Source: Glycomyces artemisiae | GTDB lineage: Bacteria > Actinomycetota > Actinomycetes > Mycobacteriales > Micromonosporaceae | Direction: 5' to 3' | Assembly: GCF_003002955.1 (NCBI RefSeq) | Contig: NZ_PVTJ01000003.1 | Coordinates: forward strand, 124,001 to 188,000 | DNA: 64,000 nt | Part shown: positions 2,570 through 14,475 of the stretch, in pieces | How the letters are laid out: each line of letters opens with the position of its first letter | How positions within the stretch are numbered: the first letter of the stretch is position 1 | The notes under the pieces: generated by a model | Database searches by the model: none | Told to the model about the DNA's origin: nothing | What the model saw: the letters and a program-made list of their open reading frames with translations, nothing else | Program-made: the position numbers and the translations under genes

Positions 2570-3634
2570 CTAGAGGCCCAGGACCTCGTCGAGGAGCACG
2601 GCGCGGGCCTCCATGTCGGCGACAGGGAGCGGTTCGGCGAGGTCGGGGGCGAGGCCGGCGACCGCTTCGCGGGCGGCGTCGGTGAAATGGACCGTGCCGT
2701 CGGGGTCGATGCGCTCGACGCCGTCGGCGCGGGCCATCCGCTCGTTGAACGCCACGGCGTCCTCAAGAGAGGTCCCGGGCGGGAGGTCGAGTTCGACGGC
2801 GCCGCCGTCGATCCGCACCGGGTACCCGCCGGGCAGGCCGCCCGGGGCGGGCACCGACCAGCGCAGGATCTTCGATTCGGGGAGCAGCGCTTCGATCACG
2901 GGGAGCGCGGTGGCGGCGGTGAGGAAGTTCCAGCGCAGGCCCGGGTCGATCGCGGGCGCCTGATAGGCGAGGCCGTCCTCGCGGCGGCCGTCCTCGCCGA
3001 GGTAGACGCGGGCGCGGTCCTCGCGGCCGGGGTCCTCGGCGGTCATGACGCCGGTGAGCTGCGAGTGGTGGCCGACGACGCGGACCAGCGGCGGCACGCC
3101 CCCGCCCGCCTCGGCGCGGAGGACGGCGCTCGCGCGGCGCTGGATCATTCCCGCGTTGCCGAGGCCGAGCGCGGGCGCGAGGCCGATGCGCTCCAGGACC
3201 GGGCCGGTCACGTCGGGGAGCGACAGGTTCGCGACCGGGGCGGTCAGGCCGACCTCCTTGGCCGCGCGCATCACGTTGAGCACCACGGGGACCTGGTAGG
3301 GCAGGCGCAAAGCGAGCCCGGCGGCCTCGATCGCGCTGGCGGCCGGGTCGCCGCGGTCGGCGAGGCCCCACGGGCTGCGCAGCGAGGCGCACTGGACGAC
3401 GACGTCGGGGCGGACCCGGTCGAGGAGCGCGGCCACCTCGTCGAGGCGGGTCGCGTCGAGCGGCGCGGGCTCGACGAGGCAGTCGGAGGCGCTGGCGATG
3501 ATCGCCGCCGCCTGATTGACGTTGTGCTCGGAGCGGCTGGCGATGACCAGCCTGTGTACGAAACCGCTCGCGGCGAGGTCCGCGGCGATCCGCTCCCCCA
3601 TGTCGCCCAACCCGATGACCAGCGCAGTGCTCAT
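2570..3634 (-). CDS. Saccharopine-dehydrogenase-like NAD(P)-binding protein
   Basis: The protein is 354 residues long with an N-terminal Rossmann motif (ALVIGLGDMGERIA, residues 4-17) and a serine-arginine pair (ASRS) after the second strand that suits NADP. The remaining sequence has no catalytic motif I can name with confidence; a GHHSQ segment near 185 and a compact C-terminal domain are visible. It lies 76 bp upstream of the SDR and lactonase-like genes on the same strand, so it may belong to the same transcript and act on a sugar acid. It could be the oxidoisomerase-type partner of the apionate route, but the sequence does not show this. Function beyond an NAD(P)-dependent redox enzyme is unassigned. 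Confidence 0.7.
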   Translation of the reverse strand: MSTALVIGLGDMGERIAADLAASGFVHRLVIASRSEHNVNQAAAIIASASDCLVEPAPLDATRLDEVAALLDRVRPDVVVQCASLRSPWGLADRGDPAASAIEAAGLALRLPYQVPVVLNVMRAAKEVGLTAPVANLSLPDVTGPVLERIGLAPALGLGNAGMIQRRASAVLRAEAGGGVPPLVRVVGHHSQLTGVMTAEDPGREDRARVYLGEDGRREDGLAYQAPAIDPGLRWNFLTAATALPVIEALLPESKILRWSVPAPGGLPGGYPVRIDGGAVELDLPPGTSLEDAVAFNERMARADGVERIDPDGTVHFTDAAREAVAGLAPDLAEPLPVADMEARAVLLDEVLGL

Positions 3635-3659: not shown

Positions 3660-3691
3660 GGGCCGGGCGCGGACTCGGTCGAGCCCGGCCC
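3660..3691 (-). terminator. Terminator hairpin after the AhpD/CMD-family gene
   Basis: A perfect 9-bp GC stem (3660-3668 with 3683-3691) lies 13 nt beyond the stop codon of the minus-strand gene 3705-4172. It separates that gene from the oxidoreductase gene at 2570-3634. Confidence 0.5.
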
Positions 3692-3704
3692 GGCCGGAGA
3701 GCCG

Positions 3705-4172
3705 CTAACCCCACTGGCCGGGGGTGTAGTTCCCCGCGGGGGTCTGGGTGAGGGCGTTGAGCCGGTTGTAGGCGTTGATCGAGGCGATGAGCGAGACGAG
3801 CGCGGCCAGCTGGTCGTCGTCGAAGTGCTTGCGGGCGCCCGCCCACACGTCGTCGGGGACGCCCGCGCCGTCGGCGATGCGGGTGCCCGCCTCGGTGAGC
3901 GCGAGCGCGGCCTTCTCGGCCTCGGTGTAGACCACCGCGTCCCTCCAGGCGCCGACGAGGGCGACCCGGACAGCGGTCTCCCCGGCGTGCACGGCGTCCT
4001 TGGTGTGCATGTCGAGGCACACGCCGCAGCCGTTGATCTGGCTGGCGCGGATGGTCACCAGGTTGCCGATGCCTTCGGGCAGGGCGGCTTCGAGCGACCG
4101 CGCGGCGGACGTGAGGTGCTTCGCGAACTTGGCGCCGACGGGGTTGGCGTAGTAGTCGATGCGGGCTTCCAT
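3705..4172 (-). CDS. Carboxymuconolactone decarboxylase / AhpD-family protein
   Basis: The 155-residue protein carries the peroxidase-active CxxC...H signature of the AhpD-like branch: CGVCLDMHTKDA, residues about 50-61. The two cysteines and the histidine form the thiol relay in characterised relatives. The all-alpha fold and length fit the family. I chose the ATG at 4172 because a strong Shine-Dalgarno (AAGGAG) precedes it by 6 nt; the open frame continues upstream without typical sequence. It follows the chaperone-kinase operon on the same strand but is separated by 125 bp and a strong terminator, so it is probably its own unit. A likely role is peroxide or alkylhydroperoxide reduction with an unidentified thiol donor. 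A decarboxylase role is unlikely given the CxxC motif. Confidence 0.85.
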   Translation of the reverse strand: MEARIDYYANPVGAKFAKHLTSAARSLEAALPEGIGNLVTIRASQINGCGVCLDMHTKDAVHAGETAVRVALVGAWRDAVVYTEAEKAALALTEAGTRIADGAGVPDDVWAGARKHFDDDQLAALVSLIASINAYNRLNALTQTPAGNYTPGQWG

Positions 4173-4258
4173 GGTGTGCTCCTTAGTGTTCGTCGGATTC
4201 ACTGCCATGACGGATGCGCCCGCGCTGATGTGACCGGCGGTGTGCGGGGTCACGATTG

Positions 4259-4293
4259 GACCGGCGGCCGGGCCCCACGGTCGGCCGCCGGTC
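4259..4293 (-). terminator. Terminator hairpin ending the Hsp70/kinase operon
   Basis: A perfect 12-bp stem (4259-4270 with 4282-4293) starts 3 nt past the stop codon of the OmpA-like gene. It marks the 3-prime end of the five-gene chaperone/kinase operon. Confidence 0.65.
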
Positions 4294-4296
4294 GGT

Positions 4297-5172
4297 TCAG
4301 GGGGTCACGAGGAAGGTGACGGTCTGGTTCCTGGTGCGGTCGGCCTCGGTGTCGTTGGGGTAGGGCGGGTCCTCGTCTGCGGCGGTGGCGATGCCGATGT
4401 CGGCGAGGGCCGGGCCGCCCGCGTCGGCGAGGGCCTGCGCGGCGGCGAGCGCGCGGGCGAGGCCCAGGGCGGCGTTGTCGTCGTAGCGGCTGCCGGGGCC
4501 GGTGGGGATGTCGTTGGTGTGGCCGACCACGGTGACGTGGAGGCCCTCGACGGCGGCGGCGAGGTCGGCGAGGAAGTCGCCGCTGTCGTCGGGGAGCGCG
4601 GTGCCGCCGTCCGGGAACAGCGACTCGGCGAGGACCACGGACACGTGCCCGTCCTCGGCGGTGGCGGTCCAGCGGGGGTCCTGGAGTGACGCGAGGACGG
4701 GGTCCAGCGGCGAGGCCGTCGACGGGGCCTCCGTCGGTTCGGGGGCCTCGGTCGACTCCAGGGCGTCCACTGCGGACGCGAGGCGGTCGAGCTCGTCGGC
4801 GACGGCGCGGTCCTCTTCCGGTGCAGGGGAGAGCAGGCGCCCGGCGGCGGTCCCGGCGGCGACGAGGAGGAGCACGGCGGCGGCCGCGCCGACGCGGCGC
4901 GCCACGGGTTTGGGCCTGCGGGACCAGATCCGGCGGATGCGGCGGCGGCCTTCGCGGGCGCCCTCGTGCGCGGGGTCGAGGGCCTGCACGCGGGCCCAGT
5001 AGCCGTCGGCGGCGGCGAGGTCGCCCTGCTGGGCGTGGACGCGGGCGAGGAGGTCGAGCGCGTCCGCGTCGTCGCCGACGGGTTCGAGGGCCCGGCGAGC
5101 CAGGTCGTAGCGCCCGGCGCGGGCGTGCCCGGCGGCTTCGGCGAGGGCGGCGCGGGTGGTCGCGGCGGTCAT
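4297..5172 (-). CDS. TPR-like, single-pass membrane protein with OmpA/MotB-like C-terminal domain
   Basis: The protein has 291 residues. Residues about 1-80 look like TPR-type helices (alternating Ala/Leu helical pairs, YDLARRAL, GDLAAADGYW). A basic stretch (RRIRRIWSRRPKPVARR) leads into one membrane segment near 92-112, with an acidic Pro/Thr-rich linker near 115-155. Residues about 165-291 follow the OmpA-C pattern: a phase of increasing strand, HVTVVGHTNDIP, then GLARALAAAQAL and a final RNQTVTFLV. In relatives that domain binds peptidoglycan, here from the outside of a monoderm cell. By topology the TPR part faces the cytosol. It is the last gene of the coupled operon, overlapping the Hsp70 gene by 4 bp, and may tether the chaperone complex to the wall. 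That role is inference. Confidence 0.75.
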   Translation of the reverse strand: MTAATTRAALAEAAGHARAGRYDLARRALEPVGDDADALDLLARVHAQQGDLAAADGYWARVQALDPAHEGAREGRRRIRRIWSRRPKPVARRVGAAAAVLLLVAAGTAAGRLLSPAPEEDRAVADELDRLASAVDALESTEAPEPTEAPSTASPLDPVLASLQDPRWTATAEDGHVSVVLAESLFPDGGTALPDDSGDFLADLAAAVEGLHVTVVGHTNDIPTGPGSRYDDNAALGLARALAAAQALADAGGPALADIGIATAADEDPPYPNDTEADRTRNQTVTFLVTP

Positions 5173-7685
5173 CGGCGGTCGCCTCCCCGCACGGTGCTGC
5201 GCCCGCCGTCGAGGCCGAGCCCGGCCGCCTCGTCGGGCAGGTACGGGCGGAGCTTCGCGTTGACGGCGGCAAGATGGTGCACGTCGCCGTCGTTGAGGCG
5301 GCGCCGGCCCTCGGCGAGGTGCCGCTGCACCTCGCGGCTGGGGTGGTCGGCCAGCTCGTGTTCGAGGGAGCTGAAGACGACCACGGGGAGGCGCCCGGTC
5401 TCGTCGAGCAGGCGCACGGCGAGGTGGCGCAGCTCCTCGGCCTGGCGGCGGATGAGCACGAGGTCGCGTTCGGCGATGGCGGCGTCGAGTTCGGCCTCGG
5501 CGCGGCGCAGGTCGGTGCGGTGCTCGGCCTGCCCGGCCTCCTTGACGATCTCCCTGACGGCCTTGCGGGTCGCCTCGGCGTCGTCCACCGCGCGCGGCAG
5601 TTCGAGGTGCTCCTCCACCTCGTCGAGGACCGTGTGGGCGTCGCGCAGCCGCACCTGGCAGGTCGCGGTCGCGTCGGGGTCCACCTCGGCCTGGTGCAGG
5701 AGCCGGTCGATCTCGGTCAGGGCGTCCTGGGACTCGAAGCGGTGCAGCAGGTTCCGGGCCTCGGGCGCGTCCGTGTCGGACACGTCCTCGCGCAGCCCGT
5801 CATAGCGGCGCTCCAGCTCGGCGCGGTCGGCGCGCAGCTCGGGCAGGCCCGGCGCGGTCGAGCGGGACAGGTCGATGTCGATGTCGAACTCCTCGTCGAG
5901 CACGGGCACGTAGGCGACGGCGCTGGCCGCGAAGCTCGTGTCCACGCGCACCGTCACCTCGACCTCGCTCCCGGCGGGCACGTTGCGGCGCACCTCGGCG
6001 GGGTGCAGTTCGAGCGAACCGATGACGGTGTTGCGGTCGGCGCGCGGCCGCTCCCCCGAGCCGAGCGGCACCAGGATCAGGCCGGTCCCGGCGCTCCGGT
6101 CCACGGCCACAGTGGTGTAGGCGACGAGGGTCTTGCTCGCCGGGAGCTCGGTGCCCTTCGCGAGGATCACCCCGGTCGTGTTGTCCGCGTATCCGACCCG
6201 GATCGAGTGGCTCAGCGTCGGCGCGGAGCCGACGAGATCGGCGTGCCGGTAGGTGAGGCTCGGGGTGTCGGTCGGGACGGCCGCGCCGCGGTGGTCGCGG
6301 AGGGTGATCGCGAACGTGGTCCTGTTGCGCTCCCGCGCGAACAGGCGGGTGCTGAACGCGCCGTCGGGGCGCAGCGGGACCTTCCCGCTGGTCCAGCCCT
6401 CGTCCGACTCGGTGTCGTCGAACTCGACGGTCCACCCGGACCAGTCGCGCTCGGTGTCGGCCGCGGCGCGCCCGCCCACGAGCGGGTCGACGTCCTGGCC
6501 GACCGCCGCGAACTCCAGGTCCAGGCGCACCTGGCCGACTTCGACGGGGCGGGCGGCCCTGGCGGCCTTGGGGATGCGCTGCGTCCCGGCGAAGATCGCG
6601 GCGCCGCGGGCGACCACGGTGACCGGGTCCAGCGAGTGGTCGAGCGGGATGCCGAGCCCCTCGACGGAGTGGGCGAGCGTCTCCCGCAGCACCGGCACCT
6701 GGGTCATGCCGCCGACGAGGATCACCCGCTCGATGTCGGCGGCGCGGGTGCGGCTCTCGGCGAGGGCCTTGCGGCACAGCTCGATCGAGGTCTCCACGAG
6801 GGGGCGGGTGACCCGGTCGACGTCGTCGCGGGTCAGCTCGTGCGCGAACTCGGCGGTCGACCCGTCCTCGCGGCGCAGCTCCACGTAGACCTCCGCGGAC
6901 GGGGCCCGCGACAGCTCGATCTTCGCGAACTCAGCGGCCGCCTTGAGCTTCGCGATGTTCCCGCGCACCCGCGGGTTCTCGCGGTCGAGGTCGATGCCGA
7001 GCGCGCTGCGCGCCTTCGGGATCAGGATCTCGTCCACGAGCGCCCAGTCCGCCCGCTTCCCGCCGAGGAAGTTGTCCCCCGCGTGGTTGACGACGGTGAA
7101 TTCGCCGTCCTGGACCTTCACGACGGAGGCGTCGAAGGTCCCGCCGCCGAAGTCGTAGACGAGCCAGAACGCCTTCTGCGATGCGTTGCTGACGCTGTAC
7201 GCCCAGGCGGCGGCGGTCGGCTCCTGGAGGAGCGGCGCGAAGCGCAGGCCCGCCAGCTCCGCGGCCCGGCCGGTGGCGTCGCACTGGTCGAGCTCGAACG
7301 CGGCCGGGATGGTGATGACCGCGGCCTCGACCTCGTCGCCGTCGGTGCTGGACACGTTGGCGCGCAATGACTTCAAGACTTCGGCCGACAGGTCCTCCGG
7401 GGTCATGGACCGCCCGGATGCCTTGAACCGCTTGTGCTCCCCGCGGGTGCCCATGCGCAGTTTGAACTCCGCGCACGCGTTGTCGGGGTCCGCCTCGATC
7501 CGGTCGCGGGCGGCGTCGCCGACGATGACGGCCCCCGAGGCGGCCACGTACACGGCCGAAGGCGTGAACTCGCGCTGGCGGTTGTTGCGGACCACCACCG
7601 CGTCGGCGCCCTCGGCGCGGGCGATGGCGCTGTTGGTGGTGCCGAGGTCGATGCCGAAGTCGACGGTCTCACGGTAAGTCGCCAT
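5169..7685 (-). CDS. Large Hsp70-family (DnaK-like) protein with extended helical tail
   Basis: The protein has 838 residues and an N-terminal actin-like ATPase domain. The phosphate-1 motif DLGTTNS is at residues 13-19, the phosphate-2 motif DFGGGTFD at 178-185, and the adenosine motif LVGGMTQVP near 325-335. Beyond about residue 375 it departs from DnaK. A beta-rich region (about 390-600) replaces the standard substrate domain, and a long charged helical tail (about 600-838, many Glu/Arg heptads) exceeds the usual lid. DnaK is normally about 610-640 residues. It overlaps the GrpE-like gene by 17 bp and the OmpA-like gene by 4 bp, so stoichiometric co-expression is likely. It is not the housekeeping dnaK, which would sit with grpE-dnaJ-hspR. 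The client is unknown. Confidence 0.9.
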   Translation of the reverse strand: MATYRETVDFGIDLGTTNSAIARAEGADAVVVRNNRQREFTPSAVYVAASGAVIVGDAARDRIEADPDNACAEFKLRMGTRGEHKRFKASGRSMTPEDLSAEVLKSLRANVSSTDGDEVEAAVITIPAAFELDQCDATGRAAELAGLRFAPLLQEPTAAAWAYSVSNASQKAFWLVYDFGGGTFDASVVKVQDGEFTVVNHAGDNFLGGKRADWALVDEILIPKARSALGIDLDRENPRVRGNIAKLKAAAEFAKIELSRAPSAEVYVELRREDGSTAEFAHELTRDDVDRVTRPLVETSIELCRKALAESRTRAADIERVILVGGMTQVPVLRETLAHSVEGLGIPLDHSLDPVTVVARGAAIFAGTQRIPKAARAARPVEVGQVRLDLEFAAVGQDVDPLVGGRAAADTERDWSGWTVEFDDTESDEGWTSGKVPLRPDGAFSTRLFARERNRTTFAITLRDHRGAAVPTDTPSLTYRHADLVGSAPTLSHSIRVGYADNTTGVILAKGTELPASKTLVAYTTVAVDRSAGTGLILVPLGSGERPRADRNTVIGSLELHPAEVRRNVPAGSEVEVTVRVDTSFAASAVAYVPVLDEEFDIDIDLSRSTAPGLPELRADRAELERRYDGLREDVSDTDAPEARNLLHRFESQDALTEIDRLLHQAEVDPDATATCQVRLRDAHTVLDEVEEHLELPRAVDDAEATRKAVREIVKEAGQAEHRTDLRRAEAELDAAIAERDLVLIRRQAEELRHLAVRLLDETGRLPVVVFSSLEHELADHPSREVQRHLAEGRRRLNDGDVHHLAAVNAKLRPYLPDEAAGLGLDGGRSTVRGGDRR

Positions 7686-8157
7686 GGGCGGTCTCCTTGG
7701 TCGGGATTGCGACGATCACTTGCGGGGCCTGGATGCGCCTGCCGCCGCGCACGACGGCTGGCCGGACGGTCTCCAGGACCGTCTGCCCGACGACGCCGGG
7801 CTCCTCCTGGTAGGCGATGACTTCGAGGTCGAGCCCGGGGTCGAAGCGGGCCCCGTCGTAGTCCTTGACGCGGATGCCCGCCTCGGCCAGGCGGTCCCAC
7901 GCCTGGCGCAGGTGCCGGTTGGCCTGCCTCTGGTTGCGCGGCACGTCGGCCGCGCCGCCGCGGTCGTCGATCTTGCGGGTGGTGCGCCACAGCTGGGTGA
8001 CGATCTCGCACAGGTCGCGGTCGGACAGGTCTGACGGGTCAGCGGGGACCGGCGCCACCGCGGGCGGCTCCGGCACCTCGTCAGGAACCGGGCCGGGCGG
8101 CGCGATGCGGAATTCTGCGGGGAACCGGCGCTGGCGCAGGGAGGCGAGGACGTTCAT
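7669..8157 (-). CDS. GrpE-like protein, putative Hsp70 nucleotide-exchange factor
   Basis: The 162-residue protein has a Pro-rich N terminus (about 20-50), a short helix and a C-terminal beta domain. The tail pattern LEVIAYQEEPGVVGQTVLETVRPAVVRGGRRIQ (shown only as its key stretches) matches the wing domain of GrpE: a conserved acidic-Pro-Gly turn, then E-T-V-R-P and a closing VIVAIP. The long dimeric coiled coil of housekeeping GrpE is much reduced. The start at 8157 overlaps the stop of the J-like gene by 4 bp (ATGA), and the 3-prime end overlaps the Hsp70 start by 17 bp. This context strongly supports a dedicated exchange factor for that Hsp70. The family call is from motif memory and should be tested by profile search. 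Confidence 0.7.
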   Translation of the reverse strand: MNVLASLRQRRFPAEFRIAPPGPVPDEVPEPPAVAPVPADPSDLSDRDLCEIVTQLWRTTRKIDDRGGAADVPRNQRQANRHLRQAWDRLAEAGIRVKDYDGARFDPGLDLEVIAYQEEPGVVGQTVLETVRPAVVRGGRRIQAPQVIVAIPTKETAHGDLP

Positions 8158-9734
8158 CGGGCCGCCTCCTGCTTGCGGGCCCACGCGTCGAGGGAGAGCG
8201 CGCGCCCGCAGAGCGCGACGGCCGCAATGGCCCCGGCCATCGCCGCCGTCCACAGTGCCCATCCAGGTCCTGCGAAGCGCAGGGCGATCAGCGCGGGCGC
8301 GGCGATGAGGAACAGCACGCGGTAGACGCGGGCGGCGCCGCTGAGCGGGACGCGGCCGCCGTAGACCCGGCCCCAGGTGGTGGTGTCGTACCCGACGATG
8401 TGGGCACTCAAGGGCACCAGGGGGATCCACAGGAACGTCAGGTACAGGGTGGTGACGTGGGTGCGCACCCCCGGGGTGGTGCTGCGGTGGTCGCGGGCGC
8501 CGTACTGCTTGGCGCCGAAGAAGAACAGGCAGCCGCCGAGGTTCGCCTCCCTGATCTCGCCGCAGAGCCTGCGCGGGTCGGCGAGGATCTCCGCGAGGGC
8601 GGCCTTGCGGACGGGGTCCTTCGTGATGCGGTGCCAGGCGCGCAGGCGGGCGGCCGCGGCGTCGATCTTGTTCAGTTTCAGCAGCGGTTCGACCGTGCCG
8701 AGGATCGGCTCGGTCTTGACGACCGCCAGGTTGTCGTCGATGAGCGCGGCGACCGCGTCGGAGGCGGCGATCGTGCGGGCCCGCTCCAGGACCCGGGAGA
8801 CGCCGTTGTCCTTGCGGCGCTTGTTGAAGTAGCCCACGGCGCAGCGGTTGGCGGTCCCGGCGACCTCGTCGCGGCAGGCCCGGGAGAGCGGATCGGTGCG
8901 GCCGAGGAGCACCTCGATGACGCGCAGCGGCTCGGCCGTGTCGGACAGGAGCGCTTGGGCCGCTTTGAGTCCGGCGCCGTCGCCGCGCTCGACCGCGGCT
9001 TCGCAGGCGGCCTTGACGCGGGCCTCGGCGGGGGCGACGGCGGCGCGGCGGGCGCGCTTGACGGGGCCCTCGCGGAAACCAGCCTCGTCGAGGTGCGCGA
9101 CGTGCCGGGCGGCGGCCTCGGTGTCGCCGTCGGCGGCCGCGGCGGCAGCCAGCGCGAAGCTGACGGCGGCGATGAGCTCGGGGAGGCGGGTCTTGAGGGT
9201 GTTCACGACGTCGACGTCCAGGCGGGGGTCGTCGATGGCGCGCACGCGCTGGCGGGCCCAGCGCCAGGTGTCGCGGTCGGCGAAGACGCGGTCCCAGGAG
9301 GCGAGGGCGGCGGCCCACATGGCGGGGGCGTCCTCGCCCGCGGCGGCGGCTTCGATGGCGGCGCAGTGGGTGCGGACGGCGGCGTTGTGGTGGTGGTCGG
9401 GGCCCAGATCGGGCCGCAGCCAGAGCAGTTCGTGGACGAGGCGGGCGAGGGGGTCGCGCAGGCCCTCGAAGGCGTGGTGGACCTCGTCGGGGTCGGTGGA
9501 CGGCGGCAGCGGCGCGTCGCGGGTCTCGGCGGGCGGCTCGTAGTAGGGGTTGGTGCGCTCCTCGCGGGCGCGGCGGACCTGGCGGGGCGTCGCGTCGGAG
9601 GGCAGGCCGGTGGTGCGGAAGACGTTGTCGCGGTAGAGGTCCCGGCCCGCGAGCGGGGCGAGCACGCGGTCGAGTTCGCGCCGGGGAGCGCCGGTGCGGG
9701 CGCGCGGGGCCTGTGCCTTGCCGGCCATGGTCAT
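8154..9734 (-). CDS. J-domain-like membrane protein lacking the HPD motif
   Basis: The protein has 526 residues. Residues about 25-65 (DLYRDNVFRTTGLPSDATPRQVRRAREE) resemble helix I-II of DnaJ-type domains (N-x-F-R-x-x-G-L-x-x-D-A-T), and a second block near 85-110 reads AFEGLRDPLARLVHELLW. The invariant His-Pro-Asp needed to stimulate Hsp70 ATPase is not seen. A long alpha-helical middle (about 110-400) follows, then three or four hydrophobic segments in the last 120 residues (LTFLWIPLVPL, RVLFLIAAPALIALRF, WTAAMAGAIAAVAL). The protein is therefore probably anchored with a cytosolic N terminus. The start at 9734 overlaps the kinase stop (ATGA); a second ATG lies two codons later. Position between a kinase and the GrpE/Hsp70 pair suggests an adaptor role, which is inferred. 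Confidence 0.7.
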   Translation of the reverse strand: MTMAGKAQAPRARTGAPRRELDRVLAPLAGRDLYRDNVFRTTGLPSDATPRQVRRAREERTNPYYEPPAETRDAPLPPSTDPDEVHHAFEGLRDPLARLVHELLWLRPDLGPDHHHNAAVRTHCAAIEAAAAGEDAPAMWAAALASWDRVFADRDTWRWARQRVRAIDDPRLDVDVVNTLKTRLPELIAAVSFALAAAAAADGDTEAAARHVAHLDEAGFREGPVKRARRAAVAPAEARVKAACEAAVERGDGAGLKAAQALLSDTAEPLRVIEVLLGRTDPLSRACRDEVAGTANRCAVGYFNKRRKDNGVSRVLERARTIAASDAVAALIDDNLAVVKTEPILGTVEPLLKLNKIDAAAARLRAWHRITKDPVRKAALAEILADPRRLCGEIREANLGGCLFFFGAKQYGARDHRSTTPGVRTHVTTLYLTFLWIPLVPLSAHIVGYDTTTWGRVYGGRVPLSGAARVYRVLFLIAAPALIALRFAGPGWALWTAAMAGAIAAVALCGRALSLDAWARKQEAAR

Positions 9735-10597
9735 TGCCTCGTTTCTGGGTTGCGCCAGCCGCGGAGCAGCCGTGCCAGCTCGGCCGCGTCGGCGGCGCGG
9801 CGGGCGGGGTTCGGCTCCAGGGCGTGGAGGACGGTCCGGGCGAGTTCGTCGTCGACTTCGGGGTTGCGGATCTGCGGGGACGGCGGCGGTGCGTCGCGCG
9901 GGACGCCGAAGAAGGCGACTGGGGAGCTGTCGTCGTGGAAGGGGAGCGTGTCGGTGAGCAGCAGATAGGCGATGGCGCCGACGGCCCACACGTCCCCGGC
10001 CGGGGAGTCGCCTTTGCGGTAGCGCAGGGCCTCAGGGGATTTGAAGGCGAGGGTGCCGCGGGCGCTGGCGAGGCCGGTGAACGCGTCGGTGCGCTTGGCG
10101 AGCCCGAAGTCGCTGACGCGCACGCGGGGGCGGCCGTCGTCGTCGAAGCCGACGAGGACGTTCTGCGGGGTGAGGTCGCGGTGGACGATCGGCGGGCGCT
10201 CGCCGTGGGCGACGGCGAGGCCGTCGCAGATCTGGATCAGGAGGTCCACGGCCTCCCCGATCCGGGTGAACCGGTCGCCGCGGGCGGCCCAGTACTGCTC
10301 CAGGTTCCCGGCGGGGACGTACTCCATGGTGAAGAACGCGGAGCGGCCGCCGGGGGTCTCGGCGATCCCGGCGTCGAAGACCCGCACGATGTTCGGGTGG
10401 CCGATGCGCGAGAGGAGCACGGCCTCTTCGAGCAGCTCCTCGGCGGCGGCGCGGCTGCCGACGTGCTTGAAGACCTTCATGGCCTGGCGTCCGAGGAACC
10501 GGTGGCGCACCCGGTAGACCTCGGCGAACGCGCCCCGGCCGAGGTACCGCTCGACGGTGTACTGGCCCGCGATCCGCTGGCCCTCACTGAGCATCAC
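9731..10597 (-). CDS. Cytosolic serine/threonine protein kinase
   Basis: The 288-residue protein is a bare Hanks-type kinase domain with no membrane segment. Gly loop GRGAFAEVY lies at 20-28, VAIK-equivalent Lys41, HRDLTPQN at 139-146 (catalytic Asp141), and the DFGLAK magnesium motif at 163-168. HRDLT in place of HRDLK is a notable variant: the usual Lys two after Asp is Thr. The start is GTG at 10597, or ATG one codon later, with an AAGGAGG Shine-Dalgarno about 7 nt upstream. It is the first gene of the five-gene operon and overlaps the J-like gene by 4 bp. A second kinase is divergent 196 bp away. Substrates may include the co-encoded FHA or chaperone proteins; that is inference from context. 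Confidence 0.92.
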   Translation of the reverse strand: MMLSEGQRIAGQYTVERYLGRGAFAEVYRVRHRFLGRQAMKVFKHVGSRAAAEELLEEAVLLSRIGHPNIVRVFDAGIAETPGGRSAFFTMEYVPAGNLEQYWAARGDRFTRIGEAVDLLIQICDGLAVAHGERPPIVHRDLTPQNVLVGFDDDGRPRVRVSDFGLAKRTDAFTGLASARGTLAFKSPEALRYRKGDSPAGDVWAVGAIAYLLLTDTLPFHDDSSPVAFFGVPRDAPPPSPQIRNPEVDDELARTVLHALEPNPARRAADAAELARLLRGWRNPETRQ

Positions 10598-10793
10598 GGC
10601 GCGCCCTCCTTCCCGGTCCCGGTGCGTCCCTTGCCTTCGGGTACATGTCTAACCAGAAGTGCGCGGGAGGGGTCCCGGACCTGGTGCCGCGGGCGGGCGG
10701 CGCGGTCTGCTTTCATGGAAGGCGGTTGCGGGGGGCGCCGGTTTGCACCGGTTCGCGCCCGCTCCGTGCCCTCCTCCCCCGAAGGCGGTTCCG

Positions 10794-12278
10794 ATGGACG
10801 AGACCTCCGATCCGTTCGCCCCCGTGCGCCGCAGGCTCGGCGAGCTGCTCCCGGAGTACCGGCTCGCGGCGGACCCGCCGAGCACCACGGGCCTGAGCCA
10901 GGTGTTCCGCGCCGAGGACCTGCGCCTGCACCACCGCCGGGTGGCGGTGAAGGCGATGGCCGGGTACCTGTCGATGCATCCGGGGTACCGGCAGCGGTTC
11001 CTGCGGGAGATCCAGCTGATGACCGAGCTGGAGCACCCGAACATCATGTACCTGATCCGCGCGTCGGCCGCCGAGGACGACCTGCTGTACCTGGTGATGC
11101 CGTGGGCCGAGGACGACCTGCGGCGGCGCCTGGCCCGCGAGCGCCTCGACCTGGCGGCCGCGGTGGACGTGGTGATGCAGGTGGCGCGGGCCCTGGACTA
11201 CGCGCACGACCGCGGAGTGGTGCACCGCGACGTCAAGCCCGCCAACATCCTGTTCGGCGCCGAGGGGCACGTCTACTTGAGCGACTTCGGGGTCGCGAAG
11301 GACCGCATGGGCCCGGACCTGACGGTGGCGGGCGAGAGCATCGGCACGCGCCGGTACACCGCGCCGGAGGTGTACAGCGCGGGCCCGGCGGACCCGAACG
11401 CCCCCGGGGTGCCCGCGGAGCGGCCCGCGACCGACGCGGAGCGGGCGGGCGACGTGTACTCGCTGGGCGCGGTGCTCTACCACTGCCTGAACGGGCAGCG
11501 GCCCTTCGACCACCTCGACGACAGCGCCGCGGAGCTGGCGCAGCGCGAGGGCGACCTGACGCCGGTGACGATGCTGCACCCGCAGCTCCCGGCGGCGCTG
11601 GACCCGGTGGTGGCCAAGGCGATGCACGTGGACCCGGCGCAGCGGTACCGGTCCTGCGGGGAGCTGGCGCGCGCGCTGGCGCAGACGGTGGGGGTGACCG
11701 ACGCGGGGTCGGCGCTGCCGATCCTGCGCGACATCCAGGAGCGGCTGCGCACGGAGCCCGGCGAGCGGACCGAGCTGGTCCGGTCGGTGCCCGCGGCCCG
11801 GCCGCACTGGCTGCACCTGCTCGTGCCGGTGCTGTCGCTGCTGCTGGCGGCGGGGGTCCTGGCGTGGTCGGCGTTCGGCCCGGAGGACGACGGCGGAGGC
11901 AGCGGCGTCGCCGCGGAGGAGACCTCGGGCGAGGAGGTCGAGGAGGGCGCGGAGCCGACGGCCCCGCCGCCGGTGACCGGCGACGAGCAGGTCGAGCGGC
12001 GGCCGCTGGTGGGCGAGTGCACGACCGACGACGACGAGACGTGGGTGGTCGTCGCCTGCGACTCGCCGGACGCGGCCGAGTACTACTACCGGATCGTGGT
12101 GAACCCGGAGGACCCGAACCCGTCGCAGCCCGACCACGACGACGCCTCGTGGCTGGCGTGCGGGGATTCGCGGGCCACCGACTTCGAGTACTACTGGAGC
12201 GACAGCACGCCGGACGGCGAGCAGTGGGACCCCGCGACGGACGTCATCTACTACATCATGTGCTACCAGGAGCTCTAG
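10794..12278 (+). CDS. Transmembrane serine/threonine protein kinase with cysteine-bearing extracellular domain
   Basis: The 494-residue protein has a kinase domain at about 20-300: Lys53 (RVAVKAM), HRDVKPAN at 144-151, DFGVAK at 164-169, and an activation segment closing with GTRRYTAPE. The glycine loop is degenerate (STTGLSQVF, a single Gly). One membrane helix lies at about 339-361. An acidic Gly/Glu/Pro linker follows, and a roughly 95-residue outer domain contains four Cys (GECTT, VVACDS, WLACGD, IMCYQ), suggesting two disulfides and ligand sensing. The ATG at 10794 was chosen because the family domain begins soon after and GAAGG lies upstream. It is divergent from the chaperone operon. 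Its stop overlaps the stop of the FHA gene on the other strand (CTAG, 12275-12278). Confidence 0.92.
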   Translation: MDETSDPFAPVRRRLGELLPEYRLAADPPSTTGLSQVFRAEDLRLHHRRVAVKAMAGYLSMHPGYRQRFLREIQLMTELEHPNIMYLIRASAAEDDLLYLVMPWAEDDLRRRLARERLDLAAAVDVVMQVARALDYAHDRGVVHRDVKPANILFGAEGHVYLSDFGVAKDRMGPDLTVAGESIGTRRYTAPEVYSAGPADPNAPGVPAERPATDAERAGDVYSLGAVLYHCLNGQRPFDHLDDSAAELAQREGDLTPVTMLHPQLPAALDPVVAKAMHVDPAQRYRSCGELARALAQTVGVTDAGSALPILRDIQERLRTEPGERTELVRSVPAARPHWLHLLVPVLSLLLAAGVLAWSAFGPEDDGGGSGVAAEETSGEEVEEGAEPTAPPPVTGDEQVERRPLVGECTTDDDETWVVVACDSPDAAEYYYRIVVNPEDPNPSQPDHDDASWLACGDSRATDFEYYWSDSTPDGEQWDPATDVIYYIMCYQEL

Positions 12279-13108
12279 CCGTCGAGCGCGGCGAGGTCCC
12301 CCGGATCGAGGGTGGCGCTCTGGAGAAGCGCGCGGATCAGGTTGTCGTTCAGGGCGTTCCCGAGCGGCTCGCCGAGGACCTCGTCGCGCAGGAGCCCGGC
12401 GACGCGGGGCCGGTACTCGGGGCTGGAGAGGCGCTCGCGCACCGCGGCGACGACGCGGGCGGCGGTGCCCTCGCTCCAGCTGCGGTCGTGCGCGAAGGCG
12501 GTGCGGCGCATGTCGTCGGCGACCTGGCGCCACGAGACCGGCTGGGGCCGCGGCAGTCCGCGCAGGTACCGCTGGGCGAGGGAGGTCAGGACGAGCCGCT
12601 CGACCGGGCTCAGCTCGTGCCGTCCGGGGACGGCGGTCTCGTCGTCGGCGGCGCCGTCGTCGGGGGTGCGCTTGCCGCCGATGAGGCGGATCTCCAGGCA
12701 GTGCACGGCTTCCGAGATGTCGCCGATGTAGACGGGCGTGTAGGAGTGCTCGATGAGCCGCTCCTGGCCCGCGAGGAGCATGGTGTCGCCGGGCAGGAGC
12801 ATCGGCAGGCGGCCCTCGTTGCGCATCGTCCACTCCGCGCCGTGGCAGATGAGGCGGCCGTGGATGCGGGAGATGCGCTTGTCCTTGACGCCCATGGGGA
12901 TGTTGACGTTGGCCTCGTCGCGTCCGAAGAGGAGCTCGAAGGGGCGCGGCGGCACGACCCAGCCGACGTCCTCGCCCAGGGCGTACACGGTGCCGAGCGG
13001 GGCGGGCGGCAGCGGCTCGGTGGCGTCGTCGGGCGCCTCGGGGACGCCCGCGGCGAGGCTGCGGACCCACGGCGGCAGGATCTGCGGCGGGAAGACTGGT
13101 GTGCTCAT
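12275..13108 (-). CDS. FHA-domain protein
   Basis: The 277-residue protein carries a forkhead-associated phosphothreonine-binding domain at about 50-140. The core FGRDEANVNI, then ISRIHGRL (Ser and His of the phospho-pocket), and a later NEG...LLPGD (Asn and Gly landmarks) are visible. The C-terminal half, about 165-277, is helical, with SPVERLVLTSLAQRYL and a WRQVADDM segment that looks like a winged-helix-like element; it may bind DNA or protein. No membrane segment is present. It is convergent with the transmembrane kinase, sharing the CTAG stop, and lies beside the Hsp70/kinase operon. It is therefore the obvious reader of kinase-phosphorylated threonines in this module, although no direct link is shown by the sequence. 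Confidence 0.85.
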   Translation of the reverse strand: MSTPVFPPQILPPWVRSLAAGVPEAPDDATEPLPPAPLGTVYALGEDVGWVVPPRPFELLFGRDEANVNIPMGVKDKRISRIHGRLICHGAEWTMRNEGRLPMLLPGDTMLLAGQERLIEHSYTPVYIGDISEAVHCLEIRLIGGKRTPDDGAADDETAVPGRHELSPVERLVLTSLAQRYLRGLPRPQPVSWRQVADDMRRTAFAHDRSWSEGTAARVVAAVRERLSSPEYRPRVAGLLRDEVLGEPLGNALNDNLIRALLQSATLDPGDLAALDG

Positions 13109-13206
13109 CTCGGGCGTTCCTCTCAGGCGGTACTGGATCCGATTATGGGCGGGCCGCGGCGGGACCCCTCTCGCCCGATCCCGGGCAGGCTTGCGCGAGC
13201 GCGTAT

Positions 13207-13227
13207 ACGTATATTATGTTTATACGT
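13207..13227. promoter_or_regulatory. Operator-like inverted repeat before the P450 gene
   Basis: ACGTATA-N7-TATACGT is a perfect 7-bp inverted repeat inside an AT-rich island, 33 nt before the P450 start. AT content is far above the surroundings. Its size fits a homodimeric TetR/LacI/MarR-type repressor, and no cognate regulator is adjacent. Confidence 0.55.
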
Positions 13228-13260
13228 GGAAACGCACCGACGCACGGTCAGGAGACCCCG

Positions 13261-14475
13261 ATGAACGACACCGTCCCCTACGGCATCCCGCTCGACCGCG
13301 AGACCCGCTACGACCCGCCCGCCGCGCTCATGGCCCTCCACCGCGAGGCCCCGCTGCGGCGCCTGCGCTACCACCCCGACGGCACGCTCGGGTGGATCGT
13401 CACCGACCACCGCCTGGGCCGCAAGGTCCTCGCCGACACCCGGTTCCGGTCGCGGCTGCGCGCCCCGCTCAAGGTCCCCGTCCCCATGCCCCAGGTCGAG
13501 GCGATGGGCGACTACGAAGGCGACCTGCCCGCCACGCCCGGGATGTTCATCGAGATGGACGGCGCGGACCACACCCGCCTGCGCCGCAAGCTCACCGGCG
13601 TGTTCACCGTCCGCCGCATGCGGCTGCTGGAGCCGCGCGTCGCCGAGATCGTGGAGGAGCGGCTCGACGCGCTGGAGGCCGCGGGCGGCGGCGCGGACCT
13701 CGTCGCCGAGTTCGCGCTCCCCGTCCCGGCCCTGGTGATCTCCGAACTCCTCGGCGTGCCGCGATCCGACCAGGGCCGCTTCACTGCCGACGCCGCCACG
13801 ATCATGACCATGACCGTCTCCGCCGAGGAGAAGGCCGCCGCGAGCGAGCGCGTCATGGGCTTCATCGCCGGGCTCGTCGCCGCCAAGCGGGCCGACCCGC
13901 AGGACGACCTCCTCTCCGACCTCGCCGCCGACCGGGACCTGACCGAGGAGGAGGTCATCGGCATGGCGCTGCTCCTGCTCGTCGCCGGGCACGAGACCAC
14001 CGCGAAGATGATCGGGCTCGGCACCATGGCGCTCCTGGAGAACCGCGACCAGTGGGACCTCCTGCGTGCGCGGCCCGAGCTCATGGCGAACGCCGTCGAG
14101 GAGCTGCTGCGGTACGTCGGCGTGATCCACACCGGCATCATCCGCCAGGCCGGGGAGGACTTCGAGTTCGAAGGCGAGCAGATCAAGGCGGGCGAGTTCA
14201 TGACCGTCTCGGTCCAGACCGCCAACCGCGACCCCGAGCAGTTCACCGAGCCCGACGTCTTCGACGTCGCCGGGGACGCCAAGGGCCACATGACGTTCGG
14301 CCACGGCGTCCACCAGTGCCTCGGCCAGCAGCTCGCGCGCGTCGAGATGCGCATCGCCTTCGAGCGGCTGATCCGGCGCCTCCCGAGCCTGCACCTGGCC
14401 GTCCCCGCCGCCCAGGTCCCCCTGCGCACCGACCAGAACTTCTACGGCGTCGGCGAACTGCCCGTCACCTGGTGA
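13261..14475 (+). CDS. Cytochrome P450
   Basis: This is a bacterial class I P450 of 404 residues. The I-helix oxygen-binding motif AGHETT is at 242-247, the K-helix ExxR (EELLR, Glu281 and Arg284) is present, and the heme-binding loop FGHGVHQCLGQ carries the ligand Cys353. There is no membrane anchor, so it is soluble and needs separate ferredoxin/reductase partners, neither of which is nearby. The ATG at 13261 follows an AGGAG Shine-Dalgarno by about 5 nt; the frame is open upstream but runs through the operator. A perfect 7-bp inverted repeat sits just upstream, pointing to repression by a regulator encoded elsewhere. The substrate cannot be inferred; it may be secondary-metabolite tailoring or xenobiotic oxidation. 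Confidence 0.93.
   Translation: MNDTVPYGIPLDRETRYDPPAALMALHREAPLRRLRYHPDGTLGWIVTDHRLGRKVLADTRFRSRLRAPLKVPVPMPQVEAMGDYEGDLPATPGMFIEMDGADHTRLRRKLTGVFTVRRMRLLEPRVAEIVEERLDALEAAGGGADLVAEFALPVPALVISELLGVPRSDQGRFTADAATIMTMTVSAEEKAAASERVMGFIAGLVAAKRADPQDDLLSDLAADRDLTEEEVIGMALLLLVAGHETTAKMIGLGTMALLENRDQWDLLRARPELMANAVEELLRYVGVIHTGIIRQAGEDFEFEGEQIKAGEFMTVSVQTANRDPEQFTEPDVFDVAGDAKGHMTFGHGVHQCLGQQLARVEMRIAFERLIRRLPSLHLAVPAAQVPLRTDQNFYGVGELPVTW

Follow-up and report, generated by a model that had tools for sequence, protein, structure and literature searches.

The window analysed here is a stretch of 64,000 nucleotides from the soil bacterium Glycomyces artemisiae. Five overlapping genes, hereafter called the cassette, lie on its minus strand, next to the genes of a second kinase and of an FHA protein. 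The features discussed below are the following:

3677..10663, strand not applicable: segment missing from the syntenic locus L105 of a sister Glycomyces (G117), with nucleotide synteny blocks on both sides
3705-4253: carboxymuconolactone decarboxylase gene, inside segment 3677-10663
4297..5172, minus strand: OmpA, with TPR, a single transmembrane (TM) segment and an OmpA-like domain of the peptidoglycan-binding type (291 aa); last cassette gene; called from PF00691, TM prediction and family alignment
5169..7685, minus strand: Hsp70, with ATPase domain, inserted beta-sandwich, DnaK-like substrate domain and long helical tail (838 aa)
7669..8157, minus strand: GrpE-like protein (162 aa); called from hhalign to genuine GrpE and from Pfam GrpE in relatives
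8154..9734, minus strand: J-like membrane protein (526 aa), whose J-type domain lacks HPD, with helical repeats and C-terminal TM segments
9731..10597, minus strand: PK1, soluble Ser/Thr kinase, its motifs intact (288 aa; PF00069, E 1.8e-36); first cassette gene
10794..12278, plus strand: PK2, transmembrane Ser/Thr kinase (494 aa; PF00069, E 1.5e-36); resident, outside the cassette
12275..13108, minus strand: FHA protein whose C-terminal region is HTH-like (277 aa); forms a resident pair with PK2

An earlier sequence-only reading had described five overlapping minus-strand genes, and their coordinates and overlaps are confirmed: 4 bp between PK1 and J-like, 4 bp between J-like and GrpE-like, 17 bp between GrpE-like and Hsp70, and 4 bp between Hsp70 and OmpA. 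It was also right that PK2 is divergent from these genes and that the stops of PK2 and FHA overlap in a common CTAG (12275-12278). A sigma-70-type promoter and a minus-strand terminator were searched for, and neither was found. Both kinases keep the AxK, HRD, DFG and (A/S)PE motifs, and PK2 has one predicted TM segment (342-360). OmpA passes the gathering cut-off of PF00691 (31.8 bits vs 27.2) and has one predicted TM segment (96-114); its TPR is weak in Pfam, yet its N-terminus is well conserved in the family alignment. Its best NCBIfam match, TssL-long, stays below the cut-off (47.3 bits vs 139.8). As read from its sequence, the anatomy of OmpA fits membrane spanning and wall contact. The profile searches thereby bear out the Hsp70, kinase and OmpA calls of the earlier reading. 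The FHA call is sub-threshold for the window protein alone (Pfam FHA, E 0.038), 12 of its 15 homologues matching FHA; the GR and SRxH motifs are conserved in the family, and the HTH of the window protein was called by eye. The J-like and GrpE-like proteins of the window have no convincing Pfam match of their own, and their identities are based on profile comparisons. Searches of the window with NCBIfam and PADLOC named no system, PADLOC giving generic kinases only.

The Pfam HSP70 match (E 4e-77) covers only the ATPase domain of Hsp70. Residues D8, T11-T13, K70, E171, D194, T199 and D201 are invariant in 39/39 aligned rows, including the window, in E. coli DnaK numbering. A model of residues 360-838 (pLDDT 85) contains a beta-sandwich, then a DnaK-like substrate domain, then a long helical tail; its best Foldseek match to the DnaK substrate-binding domain has E 7.6e-11. 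The beta-sandwich is an insertion relative to DnaK and precedes the substrate domain. Judged from alignment and model, the protein has the residues for ATP hydrolysis together with a DnaK-type substrate domain. With a query from a more central position in this Hsp70 class, members scored E <1e-115 and ordinary DnaK about 1e-51, with an empty gap between. Canonical grpE, dnaJ and dnaK are also present in the genome, on another contig.

The earlier reading had paired this Hsp70 with a J protein and an exchange factor. The second half of that proposal holds: the GrpE-like protein is, by profile comparison, a genuine GrpE relative. Its family aligns with genuine actinobacterial GrpE in hhalign (P 2e-6), collinearly across the beta domain, and Pfam GrpE matches 6 of 17 relatives (best E 0.002); a profile search of the PDB with this family found no GrpE chain. 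The J half stands less firmly. The N-terminus of the J-like protein aligns collinearly with J domains (hhalign P 1e-3, control families giving 0.1-0.67), Hsp40 J domains are among its weak PDB matches, and the model (pLDDT 93) has helices in J order followed by helical repeats. Foldseek and VIA-align with this model returned generic helical repeats only and listed no J domain, the J-type part being barely probed by these searches. A J-related domain is thus moderately supported by profiles and model. In J-domain proteins, the HPD motif sits between helices II and III. It is absent from this site in all 39 aligned members, and the single HPD string found among them (L031) is positioned after helix IV. 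Hence, ordinary J function cannot be assumed, and the J-like protein could have lost the ability to stimulate the Hsp70 ATPase.

Near its C-terminus, the J-like protein has two or three predicted TM segments; of 20 J-like proteins from relatives, 6 match Septum_form. PK2, for its part, ends in a small ectodomain with conserved Cys, possibly related to this Septum_form domain. Among the threonines, J-like T42 is the only one specific to the kinase-type lineages, those with PK1 (T in 82% of the kinase-type rows, otherwise mostly S); taken from an alignment, it is suggestive at most. Two loci (L046, L050) contain a tandem pair of J-like genes inside one cassette. In two others (L022, L034), a J-like gene lies without Hsp70 or GrpE-like genes in the fetched stretch; that of L022 (7721-9376) adjoins kinases and a gene of the window's FHA family (12894-13700).

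The cassette, or its J-GrpE-Hsp70 triad, recurs in 37 actinobacterial loci of two architectures. Kinase-type loci (n=26, six families) keep the gene order; PK1 is present in 25 of them, a different kinase replacing it in L048, and OmpA likewise in 25, L046 having none. Triad-type loci (n=11) have J, GrpE and Hsp70 genes and no PK1, so that PK1 is dispensable for the core; one of the 11 has an OmpA-like gene. Some copies are fragmentary, among them one with broken frames (L049) and one stopping at a contig edge (L056). Presence is patchy. The J-like query detected relatives in 19 of the family's 151 genomes, at loci that also have GrpE-like and Hsp70 genes and, for most, PK1 and OmpA. With the central Hsp70 query, members were found in 6/22 genomes of the genus, 11/250 of the order and 13/395 of the class, each count including the window's own genome. 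A J-family profile search across the phylum and a search with the C-terminal half of the window Hsp70 yielded nothing further in 396 genomes; they are judged to be of low sensitivity, since the more central Hsp70 query found members in other families. The genes flanking the cassette vary from locus to locus and are mostly metabolic. In L023 (9566-12757), a BTAD/NB-ARC/TPR regulator precedes the J-like gene, as does a gene of the same protein cluster in L028.

From these comparisons, PK1, J-like, GrpE-like, Hsp70 and OmpA form a conserved operon-like unit, far beyond chance. The co-occurrence anticipated for these five genes is therefore upheld, their order being kept in 26 loci of six families. 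The idea of a dedicated envelope chaperone set was likewise a sound one, because the five genes stay together across families and the ATPase residues and DnaK-type substrate domain of Hsp70 are intact.

The seven genes do not form one unit as had been supposed. The FHA family of the window is represented in 23 of the 121 genomes from the same taxonomic family, in many cases with no cassette. In the sister Glycomyces G117, locus L105 keeps the order helicase, phosphotransferase, P450, FHA, PK2, then the gene found at 2570-3634 in the window, with 80-82% nucleotide identity in the synteny blocks on either side of 3677-10663. This segment, which comprises the five-gene cassette and the decarboxylase gene, has no counterpart there; its position is taken by roughly 0.7 kb of different DNA. 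Conversely, another Glycomyces (G132) has the cassette, and its closest PK2 homologue is on a separate contig. FHA and PK2 were considered as cassette parts and ruled out by FHA-PK2 pairs at cassette-free loci, including the G117 one. Since the pair is kept in G117 without the cassette, and G132 has the cassette without an adjoining pair, FHA-PK2 is a resident pair beside which the cassette either was inserted or, in G117, has been lost. This resident pair may or may not be wired to the cassette. Between FHA and P450, about 5 kb of G117 DNA (L105:2905-7911), including secreted-looking ORFs, corresponds to a few bases of the window (13178-13183), so that variable sites border the pair on either side.

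The proposed link between kinases and FHA proteins survives in another form. In the window, FHA and PK2 lie outside the cassette; elsewhere, other FHA-HTH proteins and second kinases join it. In 8 loci, a gene between J and PK1 belongs to a second FHA family, which has an OmpR-like winged helix (FHA, E 5e-8; Trans_reg_C, E 6e-5, just below cut-off); in 4 loci, a member of a third family, with a weak sigma-like HTH, adjoins PK1, several of these next to a divergent TPR kinase. In total, 12 loci, all outside Glycomyces, have FHA-HTH genes inside or beside the operon at PK1. The three FHA families have no member in any of the 11 triad-type loci. As the four such genomes counted have just 5-14 PF00498 matches each, chance FHA adjacency is estimated at about 1 per cent per locus. 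Judged from gene neighbourhoods, the coupling of kinase and FHA genes with the cassette in other lineages is real. Comparison of the three FHA-HTH families with each other by hhalign gave no confident score, the alignments being too shallow.

In the Hsp70 tree, neither the kinase-type nor the triad-type loci are monophyletic. Three Glycomyces make up the window clade, whose sister group is a pair of triad-type loci from a different family, and distant types coexist within one genus and within one genome (G561). Together with a patchy distribution and a variable site, this tree suggests that the cassette spreads horizontally. Homologous Hsp70 units are found on plasmids of Proteobacteria and Bacteroidota, namely in Pseudomonas (a conjugative plasmid), Aminobacter, Vibrio and Haliscomenobacter. 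In every unit, a GrpE-like gene (E 3e-4 to 5e-8) comes before Hsp70. In Haliscomenobacter hydrossis (pHALHY02), the J-like partner is clear (E 2e-17), and J-GrpE-Hsp70 is directly followed by a kinase fused to AAA (L118:10520-12334, annotated merely as AAA ATPase), then by TerB, with BREX genes alongside. The first gene of the Aminobacter unit encodes a peptidoglycan-binding domain (its J-like match is weak, E 1e-3), and a separate peptidoglycan-binding protein is encoded near the Vibrio locus. Hence, both the kinase link and the wall link recur outside actinobacteria. The C-terminal half of the window Hsp70 has no match on plasmids or phages, and matches of the full-length protein to phages are confined to the ATPase half.

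With a probability of about 0.5, we propose that positions 4297-10597 are a horizontally spread cassette for a second, dedicated Hsp70 machine at the envelope, linked to a Ser/Thr kinase. The J-like protein and OmpA would hold the dedicated Hsp70/GrpE pair at the membrane. PK1 would phosphorylate a cassette protein or itself and thereby switch recruitment or cycling, and the FHA-HTH protein, where encoded, would read phosphothreonine and adjust transcription, as in PknH-EmbR. The trigger might be wall damage or an invader. The anatomy and linkage of the genes are observed; the regulatory steps, phosphorylation and FHA reading, we infer by analogy. In its fullest version, a phosphorylation-gated Hsp70 with an HPD-less J partner, in which Ser/Thr phosphorylation triggers the membrane chaperone cycle and FHA-HTH reports its state to transcription, the model is distinctly speculative.

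Other explanations share part of this evidence. The cassette might belong to an anti-phage or conflict system, the Hsp70 set holding or releasing an immune component and the kinase setting the threshold, as predicted for the HSP70/GrpE-containing GAP1-N2 systems. Patchy presence, gain or loss at a syntenic site, plasmid-borne relatives, one of them beside BREX genes, and the published HSP70-GrpE-J/TPR theme (PMC7159879) all fit this explanation. It is nevertheless on the unlikely side: no effector domain recurs near the cassette, where flanks are varied and mostly metabolic, GAP1 is not among the 25 commonest families of the 92 flanking proteins, PADLOC yields generic kinases only, and the OmpA part suggests an envelope job. 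That same OmpA gene, together with the membrane-bound J-like protein, the Septum_form domains of its relatives and the peptidoglycan-binding domains of the plasmid relatives, would suit an envelope quality-control or septation chaperone that refolds or assembles wall-linked complexes without signalling output, PK1 serving for general tuning. This is rather unlikely, as FHA-HTH regulators of different families join the operon at PK1, which suggests signalling.

Intact Hsp70 chemistry, in a genome with its own dnaK-grpE-dnaJ elsewhere, could also be that of a redundant DnaK-type paralogue for general stress, to which kinase and OmpA are linked incidentally. The gene order kept over divergent lineages, the distinct Hsp70 class with its extra domain and the HPD-less J partner make this very improbable. 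That all seven genes are neighbours by chance is barely credible: it holds for FHA-PK2 relative to the cassette, each being found without the other, but is refuted for the five cassette genes, which keep order and overlap across divergent lineages.

Hsp70 systems are commonly regarded as folding machines for general use, under the control of J proteins and heat shock. The envelope-anchored cassette proposed here couples a full Hsp70 set with a kinase and the cell wall, always including a J-type partner that lacks HPD, and offers a testable case of a chaperone devoted to a single task and perhaps of an Hsp70 under phospho-control. If true, a phosphorylation-gated Hsp70 would be a transferable wall-to-gene chaperone signalling circuit. 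The 37 loci, the two architectures and the cassette-free syntenic locus lend themselves to direct comparative and deletion tests.

Among published themes, the nearest is that of the GTPase-centred GAP1-N2 conflict systems, in which HSP70, GrpE and a J- or TPR-bearing partner occur in actinobacterial operons, kinases belonging to a separate theme (Kaur et al., 2020; PMC7159879). The cassette resembles it as a patchily distributed operon with HSP70, GrpE and a J partner, and differs in adding TM-OmpA, PK1 and FHA-HTH and in the absence of HPD from its J-type domain; no GAP1-N2 protein or TRAFAC GTPase was seen in the window cluster. With canonical DnaK-DnaJ-GrpE, the cassette shares the ATPase residues, the substrate-domain fold, the GrpE beta domain and, with moderate support, a J-related domain, whereas the beta-sandwich insertion of its Hsp70, its short GrpE, the missing HPD, the membrane-bound partners and the kinase in the operon set it apart. 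In mycobacteria, STPK/FHA regulator pairs such as PknH-EmbR and PknQ-MupFHA are encoded at one locus (PMC4238996). Similarly, kinase genes adjoin FHA genes here, several with a DNA-binding-type domain; however, the FHA-HTH families are different ones, BTAD has no match in the window or in the FHA proteins of relatives, and an Hsp70 cassette is linked. The single TM segment and C-terminal OmpA-like domain of OmpA recall Type VI TssL-long and MotB/ZorB, from which it differs by its N-terminal TPR and sub-threshold TssL score; NCBIfam and PADLOC revealed no other secretion or motor genes near it in the window. Finally, the TerY-P triad and CoCoNuT extensions unite a Ser/Thr kinase and an Hsp70-like protein in one predicted operon (PMC11090510), as does the cassette, whose Haliscomenobacter relative has TerB beside it; in contrast, the window cluster has no vWA, PP2C or McrBC-type parts. 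The sequence-only reading knew of no characterised system with this exact gene set, and our literature searches likewise found none described. The cassette is best read as a horizontally moving, envelope-anchored, kinase-linked Hsp70 module.
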